From positions 25,264,001 to 25,328,000 of the forward strand of contig NC_134025.1 in the NCBI RefSeq assembly GCF_964204645.1: DNA of 64,000 bases, given 5' to 3'. Positions 6,301 through 50,200 of this stretch are shown one piece after another. Source of the DNA: Tubulanus polymorphus (taxonomy: Eukaryota > Nemertea > Palaeonemertea > Tubulaniformes > Tubulanidae). The notes beneath the pieces were generated by a model. The model was given only the letters and a program-made list of their open reading frames with translations, made no database searches and was not told the DNA's origin. Position 1 is the first letter of the stretch. Every line of letters starts with the position of its first letter. Position numbers and translations under genes: made by a program.

Positions 6301-7010
6301 TCGAAAGTCAACGGATATACAAATATTGAAGTTGCAGGTGGAGTGCATTCAGTACAGAGACTCTTCACAATGGTTTTTCGACGCACCACATCACTGATTG
6401 GCAGGTTTTTACCATTTTCCTCATCAAACTTTATCCGTCGTCGTTTGATTATTTCCCAAATTTCCTGTTTATCTTGAGTCAACTCAACATCACAGGTCTT
6501 CTGTCGTCTGATCAACTTCTCGCAATCCTCTTTCGAATTGTATTGATAGTTCAGAATTTTCATTAGTAATCCATCATCGTAAACATCATCTTCATCATGA
6601 GTATTGTCCGTATAGATATCCTCATCACTCTCATCTTCATCAAATACTCTTAACTGAAGTCGTTTTTTAAAGCTAGTTCCTAATTTCTGAAGTTCACTAG
6701 TGCTACTATATGTATTAACTTCAGTTTGAAAGAAAATGATCAGAGAACCAAAACTTGTCAGTAAACTTAACATTCTATGCATTCCTTCATTCATTGACAT
6801 ACGTACAGGATTTACTTCATTAAAGAATGAAAGACCCAGGGAAAGTGGTTTGATACCCCTATACAAGTTTAAAGGCGAAGGCAGTAAACCTATAATATGA
6901 TAATTTCTATTTTTTGTTGAATCAGTTTCTTCAATTGGTTCACATTCCTCAGGTTTCATTCCATCATTTGAACTAGCAGCACCAGTGGGATCTTTTTCTT
7001 TTTCAACCAT
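3353..7010 (-). CDS. BIRC: Inhibitor of apoptosis protein: three BIR domains, UBA, RING (BIRC2/3/XIAP-like)
   Basis: E3 ubiquitin ligase of the IAP family, expected in the cytoplasm where relatives bind caspases and control death and NF-kB signalling. Coding exons, 5' to 3': 5114-7010, 4728-4906, 4527-4653, 4288-4437, 3975-4118, 3766-3861, 3613-3660, 3353-3534. All phases agree and give 940 residues. Two complete BIRs and the start of the third lie in the large first coding exon; each BIR has C-x2-C-x16-H-x6-C (for example CAFC...H...C). A UBA-like segment follows (VLDMGYNIALVKYVL), then a C-terminal RING (CKICMDNKADIVFLPCGH, ending CPICRANIRGTVRTFMS). The ATG at 7008-7010 sits four bases after an acceptor, so a 5' UTR exon lies upstream. 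Odd points are a long acidic N-terminal region (DEDESDEDIY) before BIR1 and the absence of a visible CARD between UBA and RING. The family is certain; which vertebrate paralogue it matches is not. Confidence 0.94.
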
Positions 7011-7014
7011 GATG

Positions 7015-8132
7015 CTGTAAGAATAAATGATATGTTAAGGTTATAATACCCATTACCAAGAGTTCAGAGTAAGGAAAAATTGTAAGCTTAGCTCTGTGCC
7101 AACAAATTCCCTATACAGAAAGAGCACCCAAAATCATTTAACGCAGTTTAACTCAGATAGCCGTACGATGTTATTCATGTATACTGAGTACCTAGGGTAC
7201 TACTCACTAATAGTCAGTGCATGTCAACTAATTAAAAAGATGTTTTCCTGAAATCAGGCCCAGTCTACTAGGTAGTAAAAGGTTCAGTATATTCATTGAA
7301 AAGGGCTTAAAAAGTTTAAGTTTATATAACTTGTTTTGTATAACACAATAGTACAATAGCCTACTGAATACCAGACATTGTTACAGTGGGGAGGCTAGAT
7401 ACGTAAGTCTATTTATTTTGGTCAGGTATGAATTTTTTGGTGATATTTCTCTTAATCTTTTGAACACATTAATATAAATGTCCTAAAAAATTTATAGAAA
7501 AAAATAAATAGCTTTTATAGTCACGGTCAGTTGTGGAGAAATGATAGGTAACAGGCTTAAAAGCCGATGGTCTCAAGAGAGTCTGAAACGTTGTGTCTCT
7601 TGATTTCAGAGATTGATAAATAAATTTCGTTATTAACCTTACAAATTTTTAAAAAGAGGGTTTTTTGTGAAACTAAATTAGATTGACAGCTCATTTGAAA
7701 GAACAAAACAGAACAGTACCCACACCTGTTTGATAAGTAAAAGAATCTCCAAAATTACATCGATAAATGTGAAAGCTATAAGGAAAACCCACACTAATGA
7801 TAGAATAAATGTACAGACTACTAGCGCCGCGGCTGGCTATGATACACCCTATTTTGATATTGGCTTGCTTTTGGCCATCCATTGCCATGGCATTAATCAT
7901 TCATACATTTACAAAAAGGGGCACCATAAATTGCTCTTAGGAGATAAGGGACATGTTATATTTGATGTTTACCTATTAAATACTATCTGTATAAGGTTAT
8001 ATACATGAGAGAATGTACATTAGCCCCACCTAGTCTCCAAATACTGGCCACTAAAAATGAAACGATTTATTTTTTGTCCATGTCCTTGAATGCTATATCA
8101 TTCGGTGTCGAAGACATCTTCAAATAAATCAA
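7015..8132. other. Divergent intergenic region between the IAP and DUF21-CBS genes
   Basis: No coding sequence is evident. The two flanking genes point away from each other, so the interval should hold both promoters and the non-coding first exon of the IAP gene. The stretch ACTAGCGCCGCGGCTGGC near 7819-7836 is a small GC-rich spot in AT-rich sequence and is the best promoter candidate. Confidence 0.5.
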
Positions 8133-22447: not shown

Positions 22448-25400
22448 ATGTCGAAATTAACGGTGTTTAATACAATACGGGTGCTATTTACATATTTCCG
22501 CGGGTGAATAAGTTAGATTCGAATTCTTTTTAATGATCTCTGGAATTTTACATCCAATTGATTAATTTAAAATCTCTTTTTTCTCATGTTTACTAACGTT
22601 AGTACATGATCAACTTCAATTTAAATTGAAATTATTGAACATTATTCCGATGCATGATCCCATCTGTGATTGATAGTTTAAGTGATGATGAAATAATTTG
22701 AAGGATGTTTTCCCTAGTCTTTAATATTCTGGAAGACTTCTAACCATTATAGAGAAAATCAAGATTTTTAGGCATACATTGTCATTGTAGGCTACTTTGT
22801 AGTAACTAATTAAAGCTTAGTCGGCATACACAGATGTGTTTATTTGGAAATATGATTGGATAATTTGTTTTGTATCTAGATCTCGTAATCGAAGACATTT
22901 CTGCCTGGATTCATCATCAACAACAGTTGAAAATAATAGCGCAAAAAATGAAGATAATGACTACCACAGATTTTGGTATCTCAGTCGTAGAAAGAAAATG
23001 AAAAAGCGCCACCCTCCAATAACAGAAGATAACCAGTATGAATTGTAAGCTATTACCTGTTTAAAAATATCTTAGAAGAACTGAACAAAATGAATGATAA
23101 AGAATTATTACTCTGTATCTAATTTCATAGAACCAATGATTGTTTTGATTACAGGATAGAAAAAGCAGTGACTCCTTTGATTGATGTTCCATATGAAAGA
23201 CAACTTCAGGCAATATCAATAACTTATCCTTAATTCTACCTGTACCACTGAAGAAATATATTTTGCTTTACATAAGAGTGTAATTGTCTTGCAGAAGAAG
23301 GCAAGGCTTTGTGGAAAGGTGCTTTGTAAAATCAACAATGTGATTCAGAACTCGCATCCAGAAAATCCTGATTTAAAAGAAATATTTGCCAAAAATTCAG
23401 TCATAAGTGATGGCAAGTATGAATACATCTGTCCATTTGAGACATTCAAACCATCGGTAAGAACTTTGCTTTAAGAGCCATTCATCAACCAAATTTAACA
23501 AATCGAAATTACATTTAATTTTAATCGTATCTTTGAATATTTTCGGTGGAAGCCAAAAATTTATGAATATCGAAATAAAGATGAATTCAGTATTGGGCCA
23601 GACTATAAGGGAAAACTGATTGCTGGGCATTTTGTTGGTAGCGGACGAGGTAAGAGAAAACAGTTCATCCTTAAGTTCACTTGTTTCCTGTGTTTTTGTG
23701 ATGATAAAGAAACTACATTCATGTATATAATTTTGCGAAGGTCATCATATAACCTGCGTTGAAATGAAGAATTTGAAAGTATGTAAAAGCAGTCATAAAT
23801 TATTTTCAAATGTAGGTATCGAATGTCAGATGATTCTTGCTAGGTAAAATAAAATTGATGGTAATTTTTTATGTTTTCATCTTTTTGAACTTCAGCATCT
23901 GAATAACTTTTTACAAAACCACAGCAAGTTCGCTCCATGTTACATGTTTTATGATGGTGGACATTGGCATCGCGCCTCAGCCAGAACTAATAGAAATGAT
24001 GAACTTTTAGTTTCCTTTCGATTTCATCCTCAAAATCTTTCAGAGGTAATGTTGTTCACTTGCAAGAAGGACAGTCATTTCATCTTTATCATCTTGAATT
24101 TTCAACATTATTTCATCTTTTTAGATAGATGTAAAAAATGCATCAAACGAAGTCAAGAAGTATTTCGTCGATGGTCCTGGTAAAGAGTGTAACATAGCGT
24201 CCCTAAATTTCCAAGTGAGGTACTGATTAGAACACAATAAATGATAAAGAGTTATTACAGACTATTCTGCTAAATTCTATATATTTCATTACAGTACAAA
24301 AGTACGGGAAACACATGAAGAGTCTCCGTTCTGGTTGCTCAATGGTGAACCAACTATCACAGAAACTTTACACGATTGTAAATTTCGAATATCTCCTGAT
24401 GCCTTCTTTCAAATCAACACTGAAGCTGCTGAGGTGTTGTATGAAAGAGTCAGAGATTATTGTCAACTAGGACCGAATACAACTGTATTAGATGTATGCT
24501 GTGGAACAGGTAAGACCTAATTGTATCATATGAGTTATACTTTGTATTTGACACTGCATTCTGCGCTGACATTGCCTGTAGGGCAGTTTTGATTTCTTCA
24601 ACTATCTCCGCTTAAAGCAGACTTAGATTCGTTAATATTTCTGAGATATACTTTGCTAACTATTCCTTATGGGTAATTCTTGACCTGTCTTAAATTTGTA
24701 GGTACTATTGGTTTATTGATGGCTAAACATTGCAAACAAGTTTATGGTGCTGATATTGTTGGCCAAGCAGTTGAAAATGCGAAAGTGAATGCAAAGATTA
24801 ATGGTATGTGGCCTTGTGATTATTGTTACTGTTAGAAATATTATGCAAAGGAGCTCTGGACACTATTTACAAATTTAAATCGTGGTATTTCCTTAACGTT
24901 TGTAGGGGTAACCAATGCTGAATACTATCATGGTGAAGCGAAGTACTTCTTACGAGATCTTTTACGGCAACATGTAATTAAACCCGGTGATGATGTCGTG
25001 GCTGTTTTAAACCCAGCGCGAGCTGGATTAAGTAAGTAGATGTACAAAGGATCACATTCTATCATCACATAATGAAGCAAAGCCTATTTGAAATATGAAA
25101 TTCATCTGATTCATGAGAAATTGTTTTTTAGCTATGGATGTCATGGAAAGTTTGAGGAAGTGTGATGCTATCCGACGTATTGTTTATGTGTGCTGTAAAC
25201 CTCATGGCAATGCTTTTCTTAATTTCGTAAGGTAAGAAACTCACCCCGAATGATTCAAATTCATGCTCACATTAATATTCATCATTAAACACTTACGCAA
25301 TAGGAGCTATTTCTACCTATTTTTAATAGTACAGTGCGTCTTATCCTTTCAGTTTATGTCACCCAGGAAAGAAGAGGCTTCCTGGTACACCCTTCATTCC

Positions 25401-25476
25401 GAAGAGATCTTGTGGAGTAGATTTGTTTCCTCACACTCAACACTATGAAATTATTATCGATTTTGAGAGATTATGA
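22448..25476 (+). CDS. TRMT2B: tRNA/rRNA (uracil-5-)-methyltransferase, mitochondrial TRMT2B type
   Basis: SAM-dependent enzyme that forms 5-methyluridine in mitochondrial tRNA and rRNA. Exons: 22448-22503, 22880-23044, 23155-23209, 23295-23456, 23553-23649, 23741-23778, 23896-24045, 24125-24219, 24295-24509, 24702-24803, 24906-25031, 25132-25231, 25353-25476; they join to 494 residues. The start [19 protein letters not shown] is basic and amphipathic, as in a mitochondrial presequence, and there is no RRM as in TRMT2A. Motifs: [36 protein letters not shown]-binding [19 protein letters not shown], and YVCCKPHG with the catalytic Cys, then [23 protein letters not shown] and the altered CNP box are what I recall for TRMT2B rather than bacterial-type DPPRAG. 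Intron 3 appears to be GC-AG. The exon at 23741-23778 is the least certain; about 10 residues found in relatives seem missing after it. Confidence 0.92.
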
Positions 25477-25488
25477 TATTTAGCACCA

Positions 25489-25494
25489 AATAAA
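25489..25494 (+). terminator. Polyadenylation signal of TRMT2B
   Basis: AATAAA occurs only 13 bp after the stop codon, so the TRMT2B 3' UTR may be very short. Confidence 0.55.
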
Positions 25495-27910
25495 TGCTAC
25501 ATTGATATAATCAGACACGAGTGTACCGGTAATTTATTTTAGTTTCAATATAATTTGTGTTTATTCAATACCCATTGCCCTTTGTATCGAGGCAAAGATA
25601 GAAAAAAACATGCAAATTTGACACTCATCCTCTCAGAACTTGCATATTTTTCTGAAGTATTTCTACATACCGGGTACCATATCTTAATACTAAGGGTGGG
25701 ACCCCACTAGTGACCTTTGACAATGGCAGCATTATCCAAGAAATGCCTTTCCTTTTCTGCTAGACATCGGCCTTCCATATTTCCTAGATCCATCCGTTTG
25801 AAGCCATTTGTCTTTGGGGCCTCGAGTATGGTATTCCTTTCTTGTCAATTAGGGATATACATCTGTATATTTTGAAGTTGACAAAAAGCCATTCAATATC
25901 AATTATTGGCTGCGGTATCTCTTACAACTTGTCCATTGTAAAAGGATCTTCAATTCAAGAAGCTTAAAACCCAAGGTAGAAATTAAATTTAAATGCAAAA
26001 CTTGTTTATTCTTGCTGATACACTTAAGTTACAGCTCATAATATATACAATGTGCATACATATCCTGTACAAGAGACCAGAACTGGTTGTGGTGAACGAC
26101 GAAACCTTCAACTATCAAATGCCATCACAAATAATGACCTTTGATAATTGAAGATTGCGTGAACTAATTCATGTTACAATGAATGAAATAAATTAATTCT
26201 AGCATCAATACATAGAAATCTGTGAAAATATACACGAGTTATTCCAATCGAGCGAACAAAAAAATATTTACTGAACAACACAAAACAGACTGGATTGGAG
26301 ATAACAGTGGAGGGTTTTTAAAAACAATTACCAAGAATAACAGACTGAATTTATCATTGATAACTCACCAAAACAAATAATTCGTGAAAATTTGTGTTTC
26401 CATAAGTACACCGGACTAAATAACAATATGTATTGATTGTATTAATTTCTGTCGGAATTTAATCTTTTAAAGTAATGCTTTCATCAAATATCTAGCACAA
26501 CCCATTATGCTCGGGCCACAGCAAGTAACAAAGCTTCTCCCATATATCATTCATCAAATTCTTAATCTGAAAATAGTGAAAAAATCCAAAAGCACAACTA
26601 CGTATAAATTTATCGTAATTAATGACGTAATTTGGTCAACTAATTGATAATTTTACCAGGTTTGGTCAATGATTCAGGAAGAGTATGAACGCTGGATACA
26701 GAGCAATTTTGGATTTATAGATGAAGTCATCGGAAATAGTCATGGGCAAGCAAATACGGATATGTGTAGCATAAGCACACTGTTTAGCATTTATTTAAAC
26801 ATACGAATTCACTTAAAAATAACAATCACGACCACCAAAGTTTTCATAAAAACAATGAATGATGGTCTAGCTGAAAAAAATGTCAAAAGTATTTTTTTTG
26901 GAATGACAAATTGATTTTCCCACGGTAAACATGTTCGTTAGTGTATAGATATATCACAGTGCCCATCCACGTCATGTCTTACACTTGAAAATGGACTCGA
27001 GATTTCATTTTTCATTTTGAGAACGAAATTATTATCTAATGATGATACGAAATGATTAATACCAAAACTATGAAATTGAAATCAATATAAAGCATTTTAA
27101 AAACCATTATCATGAGGTCTTAACCAAGTATAAAACATTTCAAGAGATATAAAATCTGGTGCTATTGATTATTATTTTTTAACTAATATTGGCATCTTTT
27201 TGTTGCAAGCAAGGTTGACTTTTTTCAAAGGTTTGAAATATACGTAATCCTGTGTTGAACATCCAAAGCTTACTCCTCAAATAATGAAAATGCCTCAAGA
27301 AATACTGATTTTTATACATTTCCATGTCACTACAATTTCTACTTTAAATGAATGTGAAACGCTTGTGAGAATTGAAAAGGCGTTGCTTCTGCAAGTTACA
27401 ACCTACCTTTCAGGTTCATCCAATGTTCACAGAAGCAGAATATTTGACATGATTTTACTGATGGCGCATGAATAGTAGCAAGCCGGAAAACAGATAGTAG
27501 CAAATCGGCATAAAAATGTATAAATATTCCATAGATTATTATCCAATATAATTATGAACACGAAACATTTTCGTAAAATACACTAACAGTGATGTAGAAA
27601 ATCACAGAGAAGTTAATAGATTTTTTTCTAACAAAGGATAAAGCTAATTAACTGTGTCATGGTGGACAAGTTGAAGACAAAATGCTATGAAATATTACAA
27701 TAGTTCTCAATCTCTACAAAGCCAGTTTTATTTGTTTGTTTTGAAGCGGTTAGTTTTGAAATCATCTACATTTGATGTTGAACTCTATCTAGCACTTAAA
27801 TACACAAGAATCATAATTCAAATGGGAGTTTAATTTTTTTTCATCCTGCTCAGGTTTACATAACTACTCAACGGGGACCAGAAAAAAACAGCATGATATG
27901 CCAAACATGG

Positions 27911-30395: not shown

Positions 30396-33300
30396 CTATG
30401 ATAGCTCCTGCCCAGAGGCTTGCTGTTGCATTGGCTGGTCATGCTTGGCAGAATCATTATCACTGACATCATCCAAGTCATCCTCATATTCACCAGCATC
30501 ATCATGAGCACTAAGCTTTTCTAATTCTTCTTCGCTACTATAGGAATATTCATTTTGTCCAACATTAACTGACAAAGCCTGTTTTTCCCCATCTAAGCTA
30601 TTCCCCAATCTACCCTTACAATTACTGTCCCTGAGACGAGAAGATATATCCTCAGGTTCACTGCTAGTGAAACTACGAGGAGTTACTTGTTGTAGTGACC
30701 CACTTCCTCCCGATAGATCAAATGCATCCAACTCCTTTTCACCATAAGAACTATCCAACCTACTACTAGCCGAACTACTTTGAAGGGCATCGGATTTGAA
30801 ATCAGAATCTAAATTGTCTTGTCGTCGAATTTCTTCTAAATAATCTATCTCTTCTTTGCTTGCCTCACTGAAATCATCCCCACCCGAAAAGTTAGTGACT
30901 TGAAAGTGTCCGGAACCTGCCAGACCTTCATCACCAGACTCATCCTTCAATTCATCATCATTGGTTGTATCTATAACTAATTCTGCTGATGAGTCCAACA
31001 AATTATTAGCGCTGAATGTACTTTTCAATGATTCTACGCCTTTCAGTGAAATGATATCATTATCATCCAATTCCCCAGAACTTAACAATGCTATATCCGA
31101 AAAGGCTTTACTTTCAATGGGAATATCCCCATCAACTAAAACTGGATCTGTACCTAAAGTGGAAACTTCAACCTCAGGATCGTGGCCCTCCCCATCCCTG
31201 GCCATATCTGGTTGTTGGCTGCTCTGAGAGTTGTCAATTTTCTGTTTATTCTCAATTTCAATGTCCTCATCTTCCTCAATTTCTGTTTTGGCATTTTCTG
31301 TAAAAATGAAGTCATCTCCCTCACTTTCATAATCAATTAATTTGTCATCGTCAATTAGTCTTGACTCATTATTTGTTTGCAATATTCCGTCATCTGCACT
31401 ATGTGCAGGACAACTAGCTTGAACTTCTGACAGTTTGTCATCTACTTGTGTTGAAACGATAATCTCCGGTTCATGGTCAGTCAGATCAATTATATCATTG
31501 GATGATTCTGTCTCAAGTTTTTCTGGAGAATGACTGACTGCAGCAGTAGGTTCTGGACTAGAAGAATCGTAATTGTCAGTAATTTTATCGAATGGATATG
31601 GTGAATTACCACGGTTTTGTGAAGTGATTATGAACCTAGAAAGTGGATCTTTAGAATAATTTCCGAGTCGAACGTTGAGTGTATCACCTAAATCATTAGT
31701 GTGAGATAAATCAAATTGCACTCTATGAGCAGTATCTTCTCCGTTGCGTTCTTCGTATCGTTGACTTTCTTCTATTGAGTGCTCTTGAAAGACAAAGTTC
31801 TCATCAGTGTTTCGTTCTGTTGTATCACAGATGTTAGTCTCAATGAGGAGGGAAGGTTGTGTTGGTTCTTTTTCTTCATCTATATCACCCATCATCACCG
31901 CCTGTTGCTCATAGGTATCTTCGTCTGATACATGAACTTCCATACTGGCTCCCAAAGGTAATAGACGACGAGATGCAACCTTTTCAGCAACTTTTTCCAA
32001 ATCTTCAACATATTCAGGTTCTTCATCTTCATAGCAGGCACTGTTTACATTAAGGTCCGAAACCGTTGTTTCATTACATGCATCAAGATGCTGACTGCGA
32101 TTGAAATGCAGATCCTCTTGTAAACCACGAAAGGACTGGTCATTATCTTGAGATTCAAACTGTTTTGCATCCTCAGTCATCATAGTAGGAGCACTTATTA
32201 CTTCGGTAGTTTCATATAAATCCTCATTATCATCTTCACTTTTATCAGAATTATCAATATCAACAAGTGCATCTGGAGATTTCTGATGTGTTCCAAGAGG
32301 TGCTAGTTGACTGTCATCATCGCTATTTATCGAAGATTCCTCTTTCTCTATCATGTCAGAAAGACATTGTCCATCAGTTATTTCATTTTCAGCATTTACA
32401 TTTTCTGAGGAATCAAGTACATCAAGATTGGAGGTTGGAAATTCAGTGGTCGTCATTAATTCATAAGAATTATAACAAAATAATGGATCAACACTTGTCT
32501 GGTCATTATCAACTTTTTCAACTTCAAAAGTTTCAGTAACAGTTTTCTCCTCTTGTTCAGGTAAAGAAATTTCATTCGCCTCCATGACTGTATTGTAAAC
32601 AAAATCTTCTGAATTGTTTTCAAAGTCTCTCTGGCATACATTGTCAACTCCAATTTCAATCCCACAATGAGCAAGGGCTAATCCTGATTTTGAATCAGAG
32701 TCATTCCAAGTATCTGATTTGGAAGAATTTTGATCAGTTTCAGGACGAAGAAGATCATGATTGTCATTTACTACGGGATGGTCAAAAGTGACCAACATAT
32801 TGGTGTTCTCTGGTAAATCATTATCTTCAACTGGCATTTGCTCATAGTCATCTTCTTTTAATTCTTGACTCGCAGGACTGTTCAAAACAGATTCAATGTT
32901 ATTTTCATCGGATGGGTACAGTTTCTCTTCAACAGATTCATTAAGGTTACCTTCATATATATCTTTATCTCTCCCAGTACTCTCTATTCCAGCACTGCTT
33001 GTCAGATGGTCCTCATCTTGATCAGTGGACTCATTGTTAGTTTCATCCTCAGATTCCGTGTCTGATGTCTCATAGGAACCACAACTAATGCTTTTATGTT
33101 GTATTTTCACATTAATTCTCTCCCCTAGAAGACTATCAACACTGTCATCATTGTCAATTTCGGGAGATTTGTTGTCAGACACTGCAGAGGATTCAGATAG
33201 CAGAGATAACTGATTGTCACCCATAGCAGCCACAGAAACATTTACATTAATTCCTTCCCCACATAAAGAATTGACAGCACTTTGACCCTCAGCATGTTTA

Positions 33301-35265
33301 TCAATAGAAAGAGGTTCCTGAACATCAGGATAGCAAACTTCAGGTTCAGGAGGAATTTCGTTCAAATTGTCAGTTCTTGTGATGCTATTGGCAGCATCTT
33401 CAGGACTAGATAGGTCCATTGGTTGCGGGTCTGGCAAGCCAGAAATTTCTAATTCACTCTCACTACTAGACAATTTTCTCTTTTCCTCAGATGCCTGTCG
33501 TCCATATACTCGAGGACACTGTTCGTCCGATTCATTTTCATCTACACTTTTTAACCTATTGTTTGAAAATGTTGCATGTGAAGATTTATCATTGGATACA
33601 AAAACTTCATCACTCTCTTCACCACTCTCAGGTCGTTCTTCAGTGGGCATAATAAGTAGTGTATCCATCCCCCTTTCCTCCTCACCGATGCTATCTGATA
33701 AAACTACAACATTACCCTCTTCATCTCTATCATCCTGAATTGACTTATCTAAAGCAATACCGTTTTTGATACTACAAGCAACAATATTTTCTGCAATCTG
33801 CACAATTGGCATATCAGATAAAGATTTTCTGGGTTCATCTTCAGGCAAATCTTGGTTCATTTTTGAATTTTCTAAATTTTCGATTGTGTGCTTTTCATTG
33901 ATAACTAGTTCAAATACTTCGCTTGCATTAGAATGCTCAAGACTTTTATCAAAATCAGACTGACTACCACTGCCATTACTTAAATCAAGAGAATCAGTAC
34001 CTTTCTTCTCAAGCTGTTTCTCAAGGAACTGGGCTTCAATATTTTCAAAATCGCTTATCGATTTCCTTGATTGTTCATCTTCGGTTTTGTGTTCTATAGA
34101 TACAGTTTCTACTTTTATACCCTGCCCAGCCATTTCAGATAAATCAATGGGGCCACTATACTTCGTATCTATAGACGATTCAGCTAAATCCAATAGCTCT
34201 TGGGAATTACTAAGCCCAACAACTTGAGATTTCAAGTCAGTTAAGTTTTCAAGACTCTCACTTAACATATATTTGTTTTTACCTTTTTCTATTGAAAGCA
34301 ATTCTTCCTCCGAAGACCCTAACCCTTTTTCACTACAAAATGATACGAAGTTTATGTCATCAACTTCCATTTGTAACTTCTCATTTTTACTATGATCGAC
34401 AGCAGATCCACCTCCTATTGCAGTATCAAATGCCTGCTCAATTTCACCCTTATTTTTGATTTCTACATTCATTCCCTCATTTGACTGCATAAATCCCCAA
34501 GTTTTCTCATCTTCCCCACATAATATTCCCTCTTCACTTTTTGCATCATCATCACTAACTTCCCCATAATTTCTTTGATTTTCTACAACTTTGATATCTT
34601 TTTCAGTTTGACTGAAACCCCATGTTTGTTCATCTTCCCCGCACAAAATACCCTCCTCACTTTTACAATCCTTATCATCATCATCATCATCATCATAATC
34701 ATCATCTACTTCCATTAGATTTTCATGCCTTTCTAAATGATTTTGAATGCCTTTTTCATCCCCCTCTTGAATCAATTCAACAGCCTTCTCTGATAAAACT
34801 AAACCCATATCAGGATCATGTGCCTCACTTTTGTGATCTCTAATAAATTGGTCATTCCCATGAATAAGATTAGCATTAGTACTTGATGCAAAGGTATTAG
34901 TATCAGACTTGGTCAGCTGAGTTTCACTAATAGACTCAGGAATATTTTCTACATTCCTATCATTGAGATTAGTACTATCTATCTGAGCACGTTTAGTTTC
35001 TTCATTGGCACTATCTGCAGCAGTTGTTGCACAAGTTCCAGTTGCAACAGTACCTGCGACTTCTTGTTTTAATGTTGTGTTTTCTTCAAACGCAATAATT
35101 GGAGAGTGATCTAAAATTGTATTGGAATTCACAAAACTTGTCTGATTACTATTGTCCAAATCAATCACTTCTTCAAATTCTTGTCGCGGACTTGACTTCA
35201 GTTCGGTGGCTAGATCACCAGCACCTCCACTTCCAGTCATCATTAGGTTTAATTTTAAAGAAAGA
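30396..35265 (-). CDS. MAP7: Terminal 4.87-kb coding exon of MAP7: acidic tail
   Basis: A single exon of 1,623 codons without a stop in AT-rich DNA, entered through the acceptor TTTTGTTGCAG in the phase supplied by the preceding exon. The first 40 or so residues look like the usual MAP7 end (QEFEEVIDLDNS, then PIIAFEEN). The rest is dominated by Asp, Glu, Ser and Asn, with little predicted structure. Two copies of SEEGILCGEDE(Q/K)TWGF lie 41 residues apart (coding near 34,610-34,670 and 34,480-34,550). Two weaker relatives follow (NSLCGEGINVNV and DSLLGERINVKI). NDIIDLTDHEPEIIVS (near 31,460-31,500) has the form of a SUMO-interaction motif. The tail ends in an acidic DDLDDVSDND stretch and HDQPMQQQASGQELS. 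No catalytic domain was recognised. Confidence 0.9.
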
Positions 35266-38200
35266 CTGCAACAAAATAAAACAATCAAATAACAGAAAGC
35301 ATTAACTATTAGTTCCATACATAGACAAGAGTTTACACGCTTTTTTCAAACTTCCCTAGCATGTATAAGCAGTATTCAGAAAGCAACAGGAGGCAAATGA
35401 AAATACAAACAGTAAAACTCTTTACATACATTTTCATGTTAAAGTTCATGAAAATGTGTTGTACAAAGTTTCAAGGAAGCTATCTCTCTTAAGCATATTT
35501 TCGCATTCAGTAATCGAAACAAGGGTTTATGCTAGTGTAAATAATGACATATTTTACAGCTAAAGATGGTATCATTATCTAGACATGGGGGGGTTTATTC
35601 ACATGCAAACTGTCTCTAAAAATCAATCACTAGTTCAGCCCGCTTTGATCTCCATGCAAACAAACTTTATGAAGCCAAATGACTCACCTAGCATCTAATA
35701 GAGCAGGATTATCCACATCGTAATCTTCCGTATATTCAGATAATCCATTTTCTGTATTAACAGTGTTACTACTATGACTACTATCTACAACAGTTTGATT
35801 GGCACTACTACTGCTTTCCACATTTTGATTGGCTACTTCAGATTCAGCTGGCACTGGTTTCTGATCAGAAGATACCGACGATTCTTTAGTGTCTATATCC
35901 TTATCCTCATCAGGTGAGGGAGCTGCTTCTAAAGGCGCATCGACAGATTGTTCATTGTTTACTTTTTCAGGATCACTACTAATACTATTCTGTTCTGCAA
36001 CTGTTGAAGTAGTGTCTACAGTAGCTTTTTCTTCAACAGCAGTGCTATTCTGATCTTCTCCATTGACAGTATCGTTTTGACTATTATTACTACTATTACT
36101 CCCAGTACTATCATCATCCCGTTTCACCGATCCAGCTAAGTTACTGCCCGACAATTTCTTCTTTCCGAGCAGATTCTGTAACAGTGCCGACTTGAATTTT
36201 GGCACCTCAGCTGTAGTTTCGGGGCCATCACCAGTAGGTGAAGGGCTGTTTGGTCGATGTGTAGGTGACGGACTAAGCGCACGGTCTTTGGCTTCTGGAG
36301 AATCTGTCTTAACTCGTCTCATGATCATTTCCAAACGCTGAAATGCAATAAAGAGATTTAAAAATAAATTCACCAGTTAAGTCTCAATACGTTCATTCAA
36401 TTCATTCAATGTGATTTACCTTTTTCCTTTCAGCTCTTTCTTCTTCTTCCTTCTTTTTGCGTTCTTCGCGTTCCTTTTCCAATTTTTCAGCCTCCTCTTT
36501 AGCTTTGCGGTCGGCTTCTTCTTTCTAACAAAGAAAAACTTGACTTTTAGTTTATCATACTTAAGTGGTATAAAAGTTTCAAAAGCAAACAGATAGATAT
36601 ACGCACTGCTTTCCGTTCATTTTCTAATCTCTCGGCTTCTTCTTGTCGTTTTTTCTCAGCCTCTTCAATTGCTTTCTGTAAGCGTTCCTCTTCTGCTTTT
36701 CGCGCCTCTTCTGCTAAACGCATTTGTTCTTCTTCAAATCTGCGCTGTTCTTCTTCTTCCTTAAGACGTTGCTCTTCCTCCAGGCGACTAAAAATCAACA
36801 TATGTACATTTATCGAATGCATTATTTTCAATTGGCTTTCTAAGTTTTTTTAATAAAAGCTTTGCTCCGATTATATCTTACAGTCTCTCTTCCTCTTTAA
36901 GGCGTTCCTCCTCAGCTCTACGTTCAGCTTCAAGACGAGCTTGACGTCGTTTTTCAGCAAGTTTAGCCTTATACTCTTCAGCTGCCGCCTCTTTAGCTGA
37001 TTTTGCACCCTCCCCCTCAGCTGATGATGGTGAAGCGAGATCTTTCGCCAGTGATTCTTTCTCTTTTAGTTTATCACTTTCTTTGATAGTTGTACTTGTA
37101 ACAGCTGAAACTGATTTCACTCTAGGTGGAGGTTCCTTTTCGGCTGTTATAGCTGGAGACTTTTGAGGAGTCTGCAATGACATAATACAATTCATGTAAA
37201 TATTATTTTTTAAAAAATGAAACCCTTGATGTACACCAAATACCATTTCTGGGGCTACGCTCCACAAAAATATTTAACCTGAAAAAATATTCAGGCTTAT
37301 ATAACTACGATGCCAACTATACCTAAATAGAATTTAAAATTTTGTGAAACCTGACCCTGGATTGTAAAGAAAACCCGTGATTACATCCTGCACCAGGGCA
37401 CCATTGATCATCCATTCCTCATTCAAAACTTTCATTTCATTCAACTTGGCTTTGTATAGGAAAATGCCAGTATTCAGAAGAAAATTTCAACACACCATTC
37501 GCACACATTCAGAAGTTGATATGAATAAAGACGATTTCAAATATTCCATTTACATTTGGATTAGTCATGCTCTACCAGATATAAAGGAAATATATACAGG
37601 ATAAACATAAGGGAAGATGATTTTAAGTAACAGTCAGGATCGTGCACCCAAAATCCTCGATGAAAGCCTGGCAAATTCAGCACTATAGTAGTTTGAATCG
37701 ACAATACTTGCTTATTTCAAAAAGGTATAGCACAAGAATTTTACCAGGTGGTTGAAATGTATCTACTTAAGTAAAGGATCATGCTGAATGTATCAGATTC
37801 CAAAACCATCCATCATATAAAATGTTGCTGCCTAAACTGACCTTCTTAAGAATGGGCATTGGGACAGCTTTAATAGGACCCTGTAAAGCACACAATAAAT
37901 AATAACAATCAACAAAATTCTACCAATATCAAAATAGGATTTAACTCATTATAGTAACAAGCAGTAAAAGACATTCAAAGGCATTATTAAGATAAGAAGA
38001 TTCTTCACATTAAGTTCAGTAGTATGTGTAGCGTATCAATTAACTCAATTAATACAAGAATGACAGACATCACACACACCTAGAAGTTGATAACAAATAG
38101 CCATAGGTAATCATACATGTATTTAGAGAAAATCTTTGTGGTTTTTATAAGATTAGTTGCCCAGTTTAAACAAAATTTCAATATAGCCACGATACCAACA

Positions 38201-41200
38201 TTTCTTATACAAAACGTGTAAACAAGCCGCCACATACCTGGTACCATGATAAAGTGAAAATGAGAGTATTGAATTGTGATGAAAGTAAACAAAGACGTCA
38301 TGCATTAAAAACCTATAAGAGATACAATCAGGACTCCATACCAGAACCACATTCACCACACTGTACATACCGGTGGCCTGGGTGTATGTTTTTTCTGAAA
38401 ATATGCTTTCTCCTGCGAGGAAAGCACAAATTTCTAAAGATTATTGCGGATTGATCGAACAGGGGGATTTTGTTAGTAATTGCGAAGACATGCTGAGCCA
38501 TTCAATTTCACAAAATGCTCAGATTAACATAACCGATGAAAACTTAAAAGAAATATGCTAACTAGTCAAATAAAGAATAACATAACAATCGATGCAAGCT
38601 GATAAGACACATTTTGAGTGTGACCACAATTCATATTTTCAACAACCAATAAATCATCAGAGACGAACACATTCACCATTCATTGAAAAAGATCACAAAT
38701 TCTCAAAGCTTGACAATAGGTACTTAGAGTATATGGTCCTTTGAGCATTGCCACAAGTTTAGTGAAGTTTAATGAAACAATTGGCTTCATCAAGATAAAC
38801 ACCATGCAAATGAGTACATCCGTACAACATGAAATCTTACAGAATCACTAAGAGGAAGAGTGAACTGAGGTTTCACTGAAGATGATTTCTGTTTAGTGGG
38901 CTAGAAAAAGACATCGGATTTTAATTCAAATTTCACTTGAAACTAGATTTTATGTTCTTCATCCAATAGGAGCCACTAAAAGAAAGATATATCATTAAGA
39001 ATGAGAACGTTTGTAAACCTCACCTTGATCGGTGATGCCTCTTTCTTTGGTGGAGTTTTCGCAGTTTTTGGAGTCGATAAACGTTCAATAGCCTTTGGCA
39101 TAAAAACACGCGGCGATGATTTTTTCTCTTGTTCGTCCTTTTCTTTTTTCTCTTTCAGCTGTTTGTCGGTGATTCCCGAGGATCTCGATCTCGAAACTGT
39201 GAATTCAACCATGAAAATTCAAAGCATACGTTATATTACGCAAGAATGAAATTTCGTAAACGGTACAACGAAGTACGAAGAGCAGCGTCATTTTCATCTT
39301 AAATTTTGGAAAAAAACTGAGAAGAACCAGAATCTAACATTGAGTTATGCGTATTGTTATCATCGATGACAATACGCACAAGCGTGAAGATGTGAACAGT
39401 AGCGAAGTCTAAAACAGATCCGTGAAATATCAAGTGACAACACACATAGCAACCCTCGTTAAAAACACAGTGAACAACAATGATAGTTAACAACTGTCCA
39501 TGCACTTCTACAGACATGTAGATAGATGATCTATCGTGTGTTTTGCCCAAATTCACAGATAAAGAGGACACAAAATGTCTTTTTGATGTCAACGTTGAAT
39601 CCCGATCGTACATTGTCACGAGAGAAACGTACCTGGTGTTATTTTTACCGTGCTACGACTCATTCGCGTCGATGCTGGCGGCGTAGGAGGTGTATCGGTT
39701 GGCAATCTGCCAGCAATACTGTGAGGTCGAGGTTTACGTACAGGACTATCATTCGCGTTTGTTGTTTTATTGTTGGATTGGTTGCCAGGTGGACGTCTTA
39801 AGTTAACCCGGGTGGCTAGAAAAGATTGCAGTCGCAGTTGCAGAAACTATGAAAAGACCCAATTATATACCCTATAGGTAAGACAGCTAAAGGCCTTAAC
39901 CGATTTTTAAAATTCCAAACACCATACATATTATGTTACCCAATACCAAGAGTTGACCACAACAGCAGTTATTACTTAAAAATTAATAGTTATCGCTTAA
40001 TGATATCAAATTCGCGTATTGATAATTAAACCTTTTTAATGAATTGAAGCATGAAGCATTTCATCAAACATTCAAAGCGAGGTGCTGCCATTGTGGTTGA
40101 ACATCGAACTAAGCAAGAGGCAAGCCAAATCACCCTAGAGGGAGAGGCTTTAGCAAAAACATATAGACCATCTATTATAAGGTCTACGAGTAGTATGAGT
40201 TGTGACAAAAAGTTTACAGGATATTCTCTATTCAGTAATTTCTCTTTATCTTCATAAATATATTTCAGAGAAAGTGGGCTTCGAAATGACCAATGACCAA
40301 CTGAATGTCTACATGAAAGTAAATCATGCAGGAGTTAGTGATGCGTGGGTGCTTCTAAAATTTTCAAACTATTCTAACCAAAATAACACATGCCATGGTT
40401 AAAGAAATACATGAAATGCGATTCCCCGAAAAGGGTGCAGTTACTTAAAAATACATGAACAAGATGATGACTGCTACAGCCTGTATGTATATTACATCAT
40501 ATCTCTATGCCAACTATCAGTTAGCCAAGCCATTCATTAATTAATTACCAAAGTATTAACCTCCAGCGTCATATCACAGCAAGATTTCATAAATAAGGAA
40601 AAATCGCTGCTGGTTATAAAATCACAGCTTTTAAGAGAAGCTAAAACAGTTATCCGCTTGCATGCCAGTATTACTCATTGATAAGGAAATCTCCAAGATA
40701 TGATTTCATAAAAGATTACACTAGGCATAAAGCAATTCAATTACTGACAATTTGTGGGTTAAACCTTCAAAAAGATTATTAAAAATAGATAATAAACACT
40801 TATCTGCCAAAATTATTGGCATTTTTATCAATGCATAGACAAAACATGTAGCCATATTATGTCTATGGAGTATGCAACATAAATGTGATATTGTGAAAGC
40901 ATAAAAAGCACATGTACAATGTAGATGGTTTGTGGCTGAAAAACTAATACATAATTTTGATGGATTACAGAAAAATCAAGAGAACATTCAGTATCTCGAA
41001 AATCAAAAGTATATCTCAACAGAAATTCCATGATAGGACACATTAGGATTGGTGATTTATAGCCAATCAGAGGCAAGCAGAACAACAATGATTAGATCAG
41101 ATGATGACGGCATACCCTTAAGTGTCGATTTCTGTGGAGATTTTGGTGTTGTCTTTTTCTCAGGCTCAGGTTGCTTTACGAGTTTTTCCGTGGACTTTTT

Positions 41201-44200
41201 CAGTTTCTCTGATGTCAATTTCAGAGTTTCCGTAAAGGTTACTTTGATCTCTTCCATTTTTGGGTCTGTTTTATGATTGATCAGGCATACGAATAGAAGA
41301 ATGACAAGTTACGTATATATATATATGTAATATGCGATGCACAATCGCAAGCGTTCTGCAAGTAATTTGTGCAGTGAAGAAAGTAATTCCTGAAAATTCA
41401 ACAATCTTTTCTTTTACACACTGACAATGTATTTTACATCGAATGGTAACACCGAGTGATTAAATAGCCTGTGGGTATGTCTACCAATCTGCCACGAATT
41501 ACATTCGGGTTCTCTCCCGAGCGAGATGGCCGACTAATGAGGTACAAACACTGTCACGTAATTTGTGCATTTTTTCATGCCCGATAGACAGGCCAACGCG
41601 TAACAATTATTTGCTAATGAACTCACCACACACATGTGCTATTCAGCTTTAAATCAATATCACATAGATGATGATATAACTATGAATATATAACAGTAAA
41701 CAAGCAAGCTGGTATATATCACTAACAATCTGTTTAGATTCGAGGTTATAAATATTCAGACTTCAGAAAATGCACGGATTCTTATCATTTTTTTCGACAA
41801 TCAGCATGAAAAATTGCAAATTTGCAATTTCTTCAAATAAATTCATAACATAAAACATGCATTAATTGAAATAATTCAGGGTCAGTGTTTTATAGACCAG
41901 TTTTAACTATGACCCGATTAGTCATCCCCAGGGCTCAAGTTAAAACTGTTCTATAGATTGAACCGACTCTGTTGAAGTACCGGTATGTGCTGAAATTAGT
42001 AAGGCTCAAATACCTACACACGACTCTATTGACAAGCAGGGCTAGGTTAGGGGGGCATTTAATTGGATACATCGCTCTCTACCTTCACGATACCACCTCC
42101 GATCCTCAAGAGTAATGTGCTCATATACATACATGTATTAAGATTTATGTTTCATCGATTCATTACGAGATTCATAGAAAAATTTCGACATACATAGCTG
42201 GTACATATGGTTTTCTGGGAAGGGAACTGAATAAAAATGAATCTAAGGAAATTTCATGAATACATAATGTATATACATAATACATACTGAAAGATGTTCG
42301 TTTATATAATGCGTAAACTTTAATTTAGGACGATATGAAATGAGATATAATAATCGTGAAATACAGATATAATTTGATTTTTCACTGGTAGCAGGTTAGC
42401 AATATATGAAATATGAAGGTTATGTGTTATCAAATGTAACGAAATGTTCGGATAGAGGAAATTAACCAGAGAAATAACCAAACAAACCTAACCCAAAACC
42501 ACACATCTCTGCAATCAAATTCCATTGCTAATTTTTCGTGAAGAAACGAATGGTGATTTGAAAATATCTTTGAAAACGTGCCCTGAACGAACCCCAAAAA
42601 GAATATTTGGTTAATCCACATTCGGTGGTTAAATAAATGATATAAATAATAAGGGTGCATTATTTCCATATTCCATTGGTGAAGCGGGCTACATGAGTAG
42701 CATAAAGCTTACCTCTGTTACACGCCAGCAAATTCGTAGAATTATATTGTGGCAATGAATGGCGACTTCGAATGTTACTTAAACTTTTAGTAGATTGGCT
42801 TAAAGTTTTTCTACTTCCTACAGAGGAGGAAACCGACAACGGATGAAGTAACATAGAACAAAAATTTAGCGCACTACAATGATGAAATCAGTTGTATCAC
42901 TTAAACAATATTCATTGGTTTGCATTTTAATTGCAGTATATATCAATCTCAGAAGCTTGACATTTGACATATCTACAATATCGATCATCAACTCAACTTT
43001 GGGCTAAAAAGGCCGTGAATACAGAAAAAAAAACTTTAAAAAAACAAACCATATTAAGATAGTTTTGATGTGAACTAAGTGACAAAAAATATAAAAAGAT
43101 AGTGTGACCTAATGTACCAGTAGTAAGAAGACTTGTAAAGAGGCGCAGTGAGACTTTGCGGAGGAGTATTTCTTACCAGGAGAGCTATCCCTCGATCTGG
43201 ACACCTGCTTCGATGAAGCAGACAGGTCGATGCTTCGGTTCCGGGACAACACGGAACATGAAGCCGAAAGTCGTTTTGAGGGCGACCCAGACTCATTGAC
43301 TACAAATATGAAAGAGCACAATGCACATAAGGATACGAGATATACAGGATAATGGTGATTATATGCCATGCAAAATCCACTGGTGGAGGATACTACTGAT
43401 GTTATATTGCTTAAGCGCATGGTGGGAACATCCATCTGGCTGGCTCTAATCTACATAGCGTGCGTGAATATCTAACAAAAACCTCATTAGATTTTGGTAA
43501 TTTTTTGGAGAAATTGCGGAATTCAAAACAATAGTATCTTGCGTGACGTATATATCCAACCAACATTCTTTAAGATGAAATTGAGCATAACACATATTAT
43601 ATAAATATACATATATATATAAATATATATATATATATAAACATGTACGTACAGCAAGAGAAAGTGAACATGCTTCACATATACATGTACAAATCTCCGC
43701 ACTTGCCACAGTTCAAGACCCTAGCAAGTGGTTTGAAAAATCATAGAACTGATTCGTTAGATTGAATGAATCTAACAAATATCACAATCATTTAATCCAA
43801 AGAAAATAGATAAAAACTATCATAAAAATAATTTGTTAAATTCAACGTGTGTCGTTTACTGTTAATTAGTTTCTGAATCATGAAAATCTGAACTCAAAAC
43901 AGCATCCAGTTTTTCACGAATATTCAATCAAGACCAAGCGATAATATGCGCTATAAATCAAAAGCTCTGGTTAGTACCTACAGCAGGGCTTACCCCAAAA
44001 ATATGACCAAACACCAAAAAAAACATTAAATAGAAATTTTCAACCCAAGTCCTGCTCATTTGACACACGTTGTGTTAATATTGTTACCTTTAACTACTGA
44101 AAGTGCAAAAGAACATGGAAAATCGGTAATACCTGAAGCACAGGCGATTACTGGGAAAGGTACCGGGAAAATCAACCGGGAAATAACAGGTTTTGATTAG

Positions 44201-47200
44201 TTGAACAGTTCTCCGTGACAAATGGATATCAGAGAACTCGGGATAAATCAACGTGCAAAAAATTATTCGGAAAATTCTAGGCATTTTTCATTCGGTGCAA
44301 AAGTTAATCATCATGACCAGTTTGGATGCTGAATTCGATTCTAGATAAGAAAGTTTGCTCAGCGATTTGCAATTAATTGCCTCAAGCGCGCTCAAACACC
44401 AAAATCATTGCCGTATTAAATTCCAAAGCTATTTAAGAATAATGAGCCTGAAGGCTCACCTGTGAAATGATCGATGGTAAATTTTGTATACTGAAGTGAT
44501 CAATAACGGTATATTGGAATATTTCATTAGAATCAATCTATGCCGGTGAATTCACTCCCATAGCAAAACCCTCTAATAGCAGAAATGTAGCAAAAAGCAA
44601 TTTAAATGCCTCGTCCACGGCAACTTGAACAGTCGCTTATTGCTTTTAGTCAAGAAGAAATTGAAAAGAGTAATCATAGTCATGCATTCTGATATTCATG
44701 CTTTAGGCTTTTTGTCTCATGATTATGATTATTAGTATCAGAAGTCCATGCAGTAATCGCTATGGAACCTGCGTTCATGCAGGCAATCAGTATACTCTAC
44801 GCGATTAGACAAGCATCGAAACATGCACGCTAAAATAACCCGCAATCTGGCCACCGGATGTCCCCGGCAGAACCATCACCCGATCAAAACTGTCCCGACG
44901 GTCGGACTTTCGGCGCGCGCACCCGTCCCGAACCTGCAGTGCAAATAGATTAGTATGTTAGATAACCACCACATACCATTCCTGTCCGCGGTGTAGCGTC
45001 GTCGCACAGCAGCAGACGCCGATGCTGCGCGACGGTGCGAACGCTGATGTGCATCATCCCCGGTCCGTCGGACAAGGCTGGTATGTGATGATGATCGACG
45101 AGACCGGTCTAACGGCTCACAGATATCCCTCGGTGTTCCGCTGCCGAACGCAACCACGTAGCTGATGCCTCGTCGACCTCGAATCGACTCGAGCTTCGCT
45201 TCTCTTTCGGCCGATCGACGTAAAAGGGCCTCGAGTTTATCCTGAAATACGAAAAATGTTATATCACGTTTAGAAAAAAATTGATATGAATCAGTGAATA
45301 TTGTGTATCTGCACTATACAGATTTATCACTAGAACTAGGTTGACCTTCTAATGTCCTGCAAAAGGGTAGGCGATAAGAAATGAACTAACCATTATTTCC
45401 ATAATCAATTTACACCTTACGACAGTGAGTCAGTGCAGTAAGATGACATGTTTGAAGTTAATAAATCATCTAGGCCTATGAAATTTACTGAAAGACCCAT
45501 AAATCTAAACTGATAACGCGGATATTCATCTCCTACCCTTTCAGCTTCCGATCTCTGCTTGCGTCGCTCTTCCACGGCCGACCTTCGTTCTTCATCTCGT
45601 CGACGTAGTTCCTCGATCTTACGCTTCCTTTCCTCTTGTTGTTTCGTGCGATATTCCTGCGCGAGTCGTTGCGCCTCTCTCAATTCTTGCACTTTACGTT
45701 TGCGTTCTTCGTCGTGTTTTTCTCGAAGATTGCGAACGCGTTCTTCGCGCTCTTTCGCTTTCTGCGCCGATTCTACAAGAAAATGGTCAACAAAAATAGA
45801 AAACACAAAGATCTTATGAAAATGATAATCATCGGTAGACTACTGAATTCTTCTTAAGTGGGCGGGCAGAAATTGTAGACAGAAACTTGACAACTTGGCA
45901 AGAAACCTTACTCGCAATAAAGAAACCTTATCTCTTGATATCACTTTCAAAATCAACAGATATGTACTATCACGTGGGTGTAGTTTATAAATAAAAAAAT
46001 TTATCGTATTGTTAAATTTTGAAATATATTTAGATAAGACGACGGTGACACATGTTTCTAAAATAGACAATCGCAAATTCTTTTGACGCAGAAAAAGATT
46101 AAGTTTTCTACCTGACATTACTATCAATTGACCTTTGAAAAAACTGAATTCATATTTCTGTTTCGTTGACACATGATATTCAATTTAAACAGTACTTTTT
46201 TCAAATAACGGTACTTTTTTCAAATAACGTACTTATTTGCTCTCTGTCTCTGTATTTCATGAAAGGGATTCTAAACTCGAGTATACAATTTCATTTCAGA
46301 TGGCATTTTAAATGAAAACACTGCGAGATGCAGTCTGAATTTTCAAGACGCAATCCATCACACGATACATTTTCATCACGAATGAATGAGTAAAGATGAT
46401 AAAGCGAGTACATAGTTCGTCGTTACAAAGCAGGACAAACAACATTTCCGTATGAATTTGGAGCCGATATAGGACATCGATGGTTTAAATCTAATAGCAG
46501 TACTTGAATTTGCCAAAAATAGGCCAGCGATTAGTTGAAATAAGGGAATATTTCAGATACTGGTCAGATTCAGTAAATATGATGCTTCATCTGTAGTATA
46601 GATATGCGAGAGCGGCATGGAAAACTACATCATTTATGATACCTGAATAAAAAGTGAATATTTTATGCATCTTATGTACGAATAGAAAGACGTGAAGTGA
46701 CAGGAGCAAGTTGATGCCAGTAATACATATATAGTCGAAGCGGAAACCACGTATGTACTCACTAAATATAAGGCTATGAATGACTGCAACATAAACGAAA
46801 AATTTTTGTATTCATTCAAACTTATGACACCGAGGAGCCATGATTTCAAGAACACACGGCAAAGATGCAGTCACCATGGTAACTGGTCAAACAGCCTCAT
46901 GCGTCGTGGACGGCTGGTTTAGCACAATTAAAATTGCTCCGCATTTATGAAAGGTTTGTTTTTTTCTTTTCAGATGATTATCTATGTCTTACGAATGATA
47001 CGTATAATAGGACATATGCAAGACCATAATAAACCTATGCTAAGGAATAACGCAGGCTTCAGTATCTTACTGGTCATAAAGTTCTTCTGAATATTGCGAA
47101 AAACCAATATCCCAGCCACAACATTCTCAGTAACAATAATACATATAGGCCTATCCAAGATGAATCCACTATAACCCGGGGTTGCTAGATATTAATATAA

Positions 47201-50200
47201 CGTAAGAAACCCACAAAATCCTGAAACAAAAATCCACATTCATCGTAAACAATAATACATATAAATATACAGTATCTACCACCAGCTGAAACGTGAAAAA
47301 CGGTTAAAATCTATGTTAGTACTGGTGATATTTAGCTTGAGTTCTCATCATCACGTGACACCAATATACCGACTGTTTAATACTCTATAGCAGCAATGAT
47401 TGTCCAAATTTACAGCTGCAATTCAAAGCATGTAATTCATATGATCGGCAGGAAATTCGGGAACGAAGAAGAATGAAATAAATGAATGTCTAAAAGTACG
47501 CACGGTACGGAGAAAATTAAGTTTCTGGGCAAAGGTAATTGAGAGTAATTTTAGCAATCTTCTCGTAGTAAATAAGGCTAGCGGACAATCATGGCTATTG
47601 TCGCTTATTCTGAAGTTTTCGATTGCAAAATTGCTGCCATTGATGACCAAGCGTATGTAAATTAAATATTGGTGATGTTAGATCAAAATTTGATGTCAGG
47701 TGACATGATTTTTTAGCGTCACACAAAGATTACCAATTTCTTGTTGTTAGCGAGGGTGAATAATGTAACGGTCTATTAAAAATATTGAGTCCCGGCGGTG
47801 AATGGAGACTTTCGGCTAGTTACATACCTGACGGAGATCGAAACGATCTATTAACACCTGAAAATTTACAGTAAAATCTCTCATCATCAGCGTATTGAGG
47901 TAGTTTTATTAGTAAGGACTTCCCTTCATAGCTTATAAACTGTAGCATGCCACTATCCAGATGAAAATAAACAATTCATCACATGCTCATCCTCCGCCGG
48001 CAGGGATTCGAACCTGATGGCATCGAGACTGGCCACGGTACAAAACCCTGCCACACTAGACCGAGTGCGCACATCCGGTCTATTGTGGCAGGGTTTCGCG
48101 CCGTGGCTGAGTCTGGCAATGCCATCAGGTTCAAACTCCCGCGGAGGGAGGATGCACGTGCTAAATTTTCATGCTAAAAGAGCTAACGCAATCTTATCAG
48201 CAGTTCATCAATATATGAAAATCACTGACAATACGTAGCTCTCTTAATAGGTAACATCCAGTTTTAACATTTCATAATTAGCACAAATCTATGATCATAT
48301 TTGGTGCGATAGTAGGCCAAATTGAATAATAAACATTTGATTGTATTCATTAAACATAAAATGTTTATTGCTGTTTGTACTGTACGATCACCCAGCACTG
48401 GAGCGTATGAGTGTAACTGAGGAAAATATTGTCAAACCATAACCACAACAAGAATAGTATGAATACTGCAACATGCGACTTACCAGGCGAAACAACTGAT
48501 TTTGGAGGGGCTGGAAAATAGTAAGATACAACAAAATTCATAACAATGAGATATCAAAAAAATTTCACATTCAAATCGGAGATGATTCTAGTAGAAATTC
48601 TACCAATTGTATTTTAGATAGAGGTCGAAACACGTGATGAAGATACGCCTGGCTACAATAAGGAATAGACGCAGGGTAAAAAGGTGAACAATGTTATACA
48701 TGTGTTTGATCTAGTATCGATAATGAACCCGCTGCTGCTGCTGATGCTGCACGCAGAGAATGATATACTCACTGGATTGAGTCGAATCCCCGACAGGTCT
48801 GAAAGATGGACTCCTGGCATTTGTATTTGCGTTTCCCGATCCGGCGGAATCCGGCCGACTTCCCGAACTGCCCGACTGATCGGCTTTGTCCGCGTTAATC
48901 CCTAAAGTACCCGCATCGTTTTCACCGAGTCTATTATCCGTTTGATCGGGGTTATCGTTAATATCCGGTGTTTTTTCGGCTGTTTGTCGAGAAGGATTCG
49001 TATTGTCAGTCACGTTCGCGTCAGTGGCGGTGTTATCTGGTTCCGGAGCTGTAAAATATAACAAATATCGAACGTAAAAATCCATTTCAAAAACTGAACC
49101 CGCCCGTGGCAAAGCATCTCTTCAGTGTCCATTCCATACAAAATTAGGCAAAGGCGAGTCTGCCAGTACCAAATATGAATTCAAAAGCAGTGATCGCATG
49201 AGCATTTTGGCCCGACCAAAAAACAAAGGACCCGGCTCAAGACAAATTTTAGCATGGGTTAGAATTAGATTATTGCGCGAGTCTCACTTCACTTCGTTTA
49301 AGCATTGTTTAGTATCGAGTGAGCGGTTTGCGTGTCAACGCGCTCTCTAATTAGGCACTGGCCAAATTTGACTCAAGCCTGATCCGTGCCAATTGGCCCG
49401 GGTCGAATCATCTCCATATAATCGCGGCTAAATTATCAAAATCAAAGTTGGTAACGATTTTGATGACCCCGAGCGAAATTAATCATCCCCCTAGAAAATA
49501 TATCAAAGATATTAAAACTCAAGTGTTGGTTACAATTACACCTTGATATCCCGCTCGGCTTATTTGCCTTCCTTTGCTCGCTGCTGTGAGGAATAGGCTT
49601 ATTATTATATTATGACATAATTCCACTGGAATGCTTAAAGAAGCACCTGCAAAACTGAAGTCTATCTTACGTAGATCTCTGAATAAAAAAATTTCGAACA
49701 AGGCATTCCATTCGTCTTAATATCAACCTGTAGATTCTGAACATTATTACTAATAAAGTGCGAAGACTGATAAGACATTAATCAACAATGAGCTATAAGC
49801 TATTACTTCGTCAGTGTCATTTATAACTTTATAAATCGATCGCAACAGTGGCAGTTGGCATTCTCGAGCCAGACAGCGGCACATTAGTTTCAGTAGGTAG
49901 AACCAGTGATTGATGGCGCATATTACTGCCTACCATCGAAAACAGGTAGAGTACACGGCTCTCCTCGAAATGGATAAATTCCACATGGACACCGCGCGTC
50001 GTAGTAATATCTCCGGATATCAACGAAACTGACGGATACATTAATGGATATTCTAATGTAAGCGAACGACGACGGAAAAAACTGCTTGAAAATAAAAGAA
50101 ACGCAAACCACTTTCTCTAAAACTAGATGAAAGCAGTCGCTAAAAGTGCTGTAACGAATAGAAGACTGCGGTATATTTATTCATGAAAGAGTGAATGAAT

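Follow-up and report, generated by a model that had tools for sequence, protein, structure and literature searches.

Does a gene of the MAP7 family at this locus end in a single exon that more than doubles its protein and, if so, what might such a tail do? The gene lies on the minus strand of a 64-kb window (the whole stretch of DNA that was analysed), for which an earlier note had described a 1,585-residue tail encoded by one exon without giving the strand. Translation of the minus strand from 35153 to 30396 yields 1,585 residues followed by a stop, so the open frame is real; the plus-strand reading of 30396-35153 is ruled out by many stops. The exon that carries the frame is the last of the MAP7 gene:

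30396..35265, minus strand: exon 13, giant terminal coding exon of 4,870 nt, stop TAG at 30398-30396 (frame, Markov comparison, splicing, codon usage)

This exon sits in a stop-to-stop frame of 1,649 codons (30396-35345, minus strand), by far the longest within the window. The length is far beyond chance: in 60 simulated 64-kb windows with third-order Markov composition, each read in six frames, the longest frame averaged 152 codons and reached at most 218. The GC1/GC2/GC3 and purine periodicity is kept along the whole frame, in every 450-nt window to the stop, and codon usage in exon 13 correlates with that of exons 1-12 at r=0.62, as against 0.03-0.36 for the five other frames. Frame length, periodicity up to the stop and host-like codon usage together indicate that exon 13 is coding throughout.

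Upstream of this exon a gene model was built by hand from the minus strand, running from 49048 to 30396, with the first coding exon and its ATG not located. Exons 1 to 12 of the model are as follows (a slash marks the splice junction):

48773..49048, minus strand: exon 1 of the model, N-terminal low-complexity segment (acceptor TTTTACAG, donor A/GTGAGT, in phase with exon 2)
45537..45772, minus strand: exon 2, beginning of the microtubule-binding helix at the N terminus (splice phase; phmmer match to 7sgs_A, E 2.6e-5; single copy)
44977..45241, minus strand: exon 3, remainder of that helix, then the beginning of the basic linker (splice phase; 7sgs match)
43177..43299, minus strand: exon 4, basic linker (phase agrees)
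42713..42817, minus strand: exon 5, basic linker (phase agrees)
41116..41265, minus strand: exon 6, basic linker (phase agrees)
39633..39815, minus strand: exon 7, basic linker (phase agrees)
39024..39196, minus strand: exon 8, basic linker (phase agrees)
36882..37171, minus strand: exon 9, start of the MAP7 (kinesin-binding) domain (Pfam PF05672, E 6.7e-17, model residues 562-704)
36607..36787, minus strand: exon 10, MAP7 domain (splice phase; Pfam)
36420..36524, minus strand: exon 11, MAP7 domain (splice phase; Pfam)
35688..36337, minus strand: exon 12, end of the MAP7 domain (RLEMIMRRVK) and acidic post-domain segment (splice phase; charge)

All 13 exons are bounded by AG acceptors and GT donors, with the last ending in its stop, and all phases agree; we consider the structure as modelled very likely. 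It predicts a protein of at least 2,534 residues (∼281 kDa). Exon 13 is joined to MAP7 in phase at consensus splice sites, its acceptor TTGCAG/TCTTTC following the exon 12 donor CTAG/GTGAGT at 35688, in line with the assignment of the exon to this gene in the earlier note. The intron between exons 1 and 2 contains a palindromic element of ∼170 bp (window 47988-48154) made of nested inverted repeats, 81% and 88% complementary, that is possibly a small mobile element.

The identity of the gene, named as MAP7 from the start, is borne out by two regions of the predicted protein. The match to PF05672, MAP7 (E-MAP-115), scores 62.2 bits against a curated cut-off of 28.5 (E 6.7e-17), and the N-terminal helix encoded by exons 2-3 matches residues 64-154 of human ensconsin (7sgs_A) at E 2.6e-5 in a phmmer search of the PDB. 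The MTBD has a pI of 10.55, and the C-terminal portion is acidic as in MAP7, MAP7D1 and MAP7D2, with pI 4.23 for the post-domain segment and 4.05 for the extension. Judged by its domain and its MTBD, then, the gene is a member of the MAP7/ensconsin family. Searches of the 268-Mb assembly, where missing matches are no proof of absence, found the MTBD once and the tail once, and the gene appears from these searches to be the assembly's sole MAP7. The tail is thus the end of that apparently sole gene. A PF05672 profile search of the whole genome, with exons searched singly, returned no match, and no control genome gave a signal in it either, which makes this search uninformative.

Where the usual protein ends and the extension begins depends on a short stretch near the start of exon 13, which opens with a linker and then runs into FEEVIDL...PIIAFEENTTLK:

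35067..35177, minus strand: FEEVIDL...PIIAFEENTTLK segment (sequence; presumed likeness to the vertebrate MAP7 C terminus)
30399..35066, minus strand: acidic extension, 1,556 residues, pI 4.05, charge ∼-264 (composition; charge-hydropathy)

We take this segment to resemble the vertebrate MAP7 C terminus, with its FEEIINL-type end; the piece had no match in the PDB. The count of 1,585 residues begins directly after FEEVIDLD, ∼30 residues before the end of the PIIAFEENTTLK segment. Because those ∼30 further residues also look like MAP7 C terminus, the true extension would be ∼1,556 residues rather than 1,585, if the presumed likeness is right. At ∼1,556 of at least 2,534 residues, it still more than doubles the protein, as had been proposed.

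The acidity ascribed to the tail in the earlier note held up on analysis, and the tail is predicted to be mostly disordered, as the note had also proposed. Aspartate and glutamate make up 24.5% of the tail and lysine and arginine 7.3%, and the extension's charge of ∼-264 is spread evenly across its four quarters; the MTBD and linker carry +12 and +42, together ∼+54 at pI 10.6. Charge-hydropathy classes nearly the whole extension as disordered, the exceptions being two 100-residue windows (starts 901 and 1201) that come out as folded. AlphaFold, run without an alignment on the first 520 residues of exon 13, gave a mean pLDDT of 38.9, in keeping with disorder, although low confidence obtained in this way is weak evidence of disorder. 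In the same prediction a lone short helical stretch (model residues 1071-1093; window 34722-34790, minus strand) reaches a pLDDT of ∼70 directly before a poly-Asp run and the twin motif described below. The run is encoded by the highest-copy tandem array of the exon:

34674..34706, minus strand: (GAT)11 repeat coding the poly-Asp run (tandem-repeat scan)

This array and short low-score ones were all that the scan found, and a tandem-repeat origin of exon 13 was rejected. No domain was found in the tail in Pfam (one sub-threshold chance match, 14.1 against 27.8 bits) or in the PDB, and no further copy of the tail in the genome. Measured against local shuffles, CK2, SIM, LIR and SxIP motifs are not enriched in the tail; LIR-like sites are fewer than expected, and a clathrin-box-like short pattern occurs 4 times against 1.2 expected from shuffles, a weak excess.

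The one part of the tail for which constraint can be read from the DNA is a 17-residue motif, KSEEGILCGEDE(Q/K)TWGF, which is present twice, 41 residues apart:

34614..34664, minus strand: motif copy 1, KSEEGILCGEDEQTWGF (self-comparison of the tail; shuffles)
34491..34541, minus strand: motif copy 2, KSEEGILCGEDEKTWGF (nine synonymous differences and one amino-acid difference from copy 1)

The pair scores 93 against a maximum of 47 in eight block shuffles and, over 12 residues, 68 against a maximum of 42 in 200 shuffles. The copies differ at ten positions in the DNA, nine of them synonymous and one changing an amino acid, which amounts to 9 changes over 8.7 synonymous sites (pS saturated) and 1 over 42 non-synonymous sites (pN 0.024). 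Ten random substitutions leave at most one amino-acid change in ∼2 of 100,000 trials (P ∼2e-5), and the residues flanking the copies have diverged. On this pattern of substitution the pair is an old duplication, and selection acting at the protein level has preserved each copy. Since synonymous sites are saturated and the amino acids almost unchanged, the motif region is both translated and constrained, and its role hangs on sequence and not merely on charge. The tail as a whole is, by these sequence measures, real and probably functional; the evidence for constraint covers the 17-residue motif within one genome and does not extend to the other ∼1,500 residues. Within the sensitivity of the search made, the motif was not found at any other place in the genome; it had no match in the PDB and was not recognised as belonging to a known motif class or having a known partner. 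A second and weaker repeat, AVNSLCGEGINV/SVDSLLGERINV (window 33107-33278, minus strand; model residues 1575-1631), has its copies 45 residues apart with several synonymous differences; its score falls within the shuffle range, and it is not claimed as genuine.

Short tryptophan-containing motifs in an acidic context are also found on other proteins that work with kinesin-1, namely the W-acidic motifs that dock on kinesin light chain, in which Trp is directly followed by an acidic residue. The tail has three Trp in all (TWGF, TWGF and TWND), none directly followed by an acidic residue, and the twin motif falls outside the W-acidic class because its Trp precedes Gly-Phe instead.

How far does this protein depart from its relatives? 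Human MAP7/ensconsin (E-MAP-115), MAP7D1 and MAP7D2 share with it the N-terminal microtubule-binding helix, the basic linker, the MAP7 domain and the acidic tail. Human ensconsin has 749 residues (7sgs chain length) as against at least 2,534 here, where the tail runs ∼1,556 residues past the conserved end and carries a duplicated motif. To our knowledge, the other studied MAP7 members are likewise all well under half this size. The statement in the earlier note that no MAP7 of such size had been described agrees with our searches of the open literature, in which no description of a long invertebrate MAP7 with such a tail was found; long MAP7 proteins may well be present among the automatic annotations of related species. 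The tail departs from what is known in its length and its twin motif and not in its acidity, since a pI below 5.0 has been published for the C-terminal tails across the MAP7 family, MAP7D3 excepted (PMC4057234). What is new relative to the known family is tail length together with a twin constrained motif, and an acidic tail is a known family property. MAP7D3 has the same domain order, and its tail has been treated together with the MAP7 domain as one functional unit; in contrast to the strongly acidic tail here, that of MAP7D3 binds microtubules and is basic, with a pI of 9.5 (PMC4057234). The addition of a long terminal stretch to a MAP7 may be set beside a further cytoskeletal case at the level of gene architecture. 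In the giant-exon isoforms of neuronal ankyrins, as here, one very long exon extends a cytoskeletal scaffold by a long disordered segment; the ankyrins are unrelated proteins, and the giant exon here is terminal.

The tail may act by projecting away from the microtubule. In known MAP7 the N-terminal MTBD anchors on the lattice and the projection domain tethers kinesin-1 (PMC8985661; PMC6446838). The N-terminal helix would anchor the present protein on the microtubule in the same manner, and its MAP7 domain would hold the kinesin-1 stalk. Repulsion from the acidic surface of the lattice and from the tubulin tails could then make the polyanionic tail extend outward as a flexible scaffold, on which the twin motifs might bind two copies, or a dimer, of some partner near the kinesin-1 that MAP7 recruits. 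The best explanation overall is a genuine MAP7 in which the acidic projection domain has been enlarged and bears docking motifs, and we would put its chances at about even. The scaffold mechanism itself is more tentative, and we would lean slightly against it if pressed. Of the three functions that the earlier note put forward as possible, namely self-inhibition, repulsion of tubulin and scaffolding, the last is favoured over a purely electrostatic role because the motif is duplicated and constrained.

Among the alternatives the most plausible, improbable as we judge it, is electrostatic self-inhibition, in which the acidic tail would fold onto the basic microtubule-binding helix and linker and lower microtubule affinity until a phosphorylation state or a partner releases it. 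The large opposite charges (+12 on the MTBD and +42 on the linker against -264 on the extension) are what such folding calls for, but some 200 negative charges are in surplus of neutralisation, and the MAP7D3 tail, being basic and promoting binding, offers no precedent for inhibition. Nor would charge explain why a 17-residue motif is duplicated and conserved in its sequence. That same motif bears on the next alternative in order of plausibility, also improbable, in which the tail outside the motif would be mostly neutral or nearly so: the ancestral stop was lost, and the old 3' UTR and its flank turned into a long disordered extension that is largely free of constraint. The biased composition and the lack of domains or relatives in Pfam and the PDB are consistent with such an origin; however, the 1,556 codons keep the periodicity of coding sequence and the codon usage of the host all the way to the stop, the motif copies are saturated at synonymous sites with almost no amino-acid change, and exon 13 is not built of tandem repeats.

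Last in plausibility, and very unlikely in our judgement, is a separate tail-only gene or transcript, with exon 13 expressed from a promoter in intron 12 and translated from an ATGATG start near 35241, outside MAP7. Two ATG codons do lie ∼20 nt into the exon, and the second has an A at -3, yet the exon has an acceptor that fits the consensus and agrees in phase with the donor of exon 12, it begins with the segment that presumably resembles a MAP7 C terminus, and without it the sole option for a terminal exon would be read-through of exon 12.

That read-through may have a use of its own. The earlier note had suggested a short isoform made by polyadenylation near 35,100, which fails because the frame in exon 13 meets no stop until 30398, and a message ending there would therefore be a non-stop message. 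Reading through the exon 12 donor instead (GAT GCT AGG TGA) gives LLDAR and then a stop at 35686-35684, and a possible signal lies a short way downstream:

35594..35599, minus strand: AATAAA within intron 12, candidate signal for intronic polyadenylation (sequence)

A plausible short form, as a prediction only, would thus combine exon 12 read-through with intronic polyadenylation near the AATAAA at 35599, leaving the protein without its tail. The enlarged-projection reading, carried to its full extent, describes an animal lineage with a giant MAP7 in which the tail would be a bivalent scaffold, KSEEGILCGEDExTWGF, as a motif not described before, would bring a specific partner or cargo adaptor to microtubules coated with MAP7 and loaded with kinesin-1, and intronic polyadenylation would supply the tail-less isoform. 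Taken in all its parts, this is speculative and rather unlikely. MAP7 is an essential kinesin-1 cofactor and its acidic tail makes up >60% of the protein here; if the proposal were true, the MAP7 projection domain could be enlarged into a docking platform, and the 17-residue motif would provide a concrete bait for isolating the partner.

Other genes are discernible in the window. Exons at 24200-25500 on the plus strand, convergent with the MAP7 3' end, resemble by eye a tRNA (uracil-5-)-methyltransferase (TRMT2-like), and a series at 60300-63700 on the minus strand resembles, also by eye, a PP2A HEAT-repeat scaffold subunit; one short piece of each had no Pfam match. An inhibitor-of-apoptosis-like gene at 3353-7034 on the minus strand has a RING exon (6.4e-17) as well as two stretches of BIR domains (Pfam BIR, 1.7e-42).
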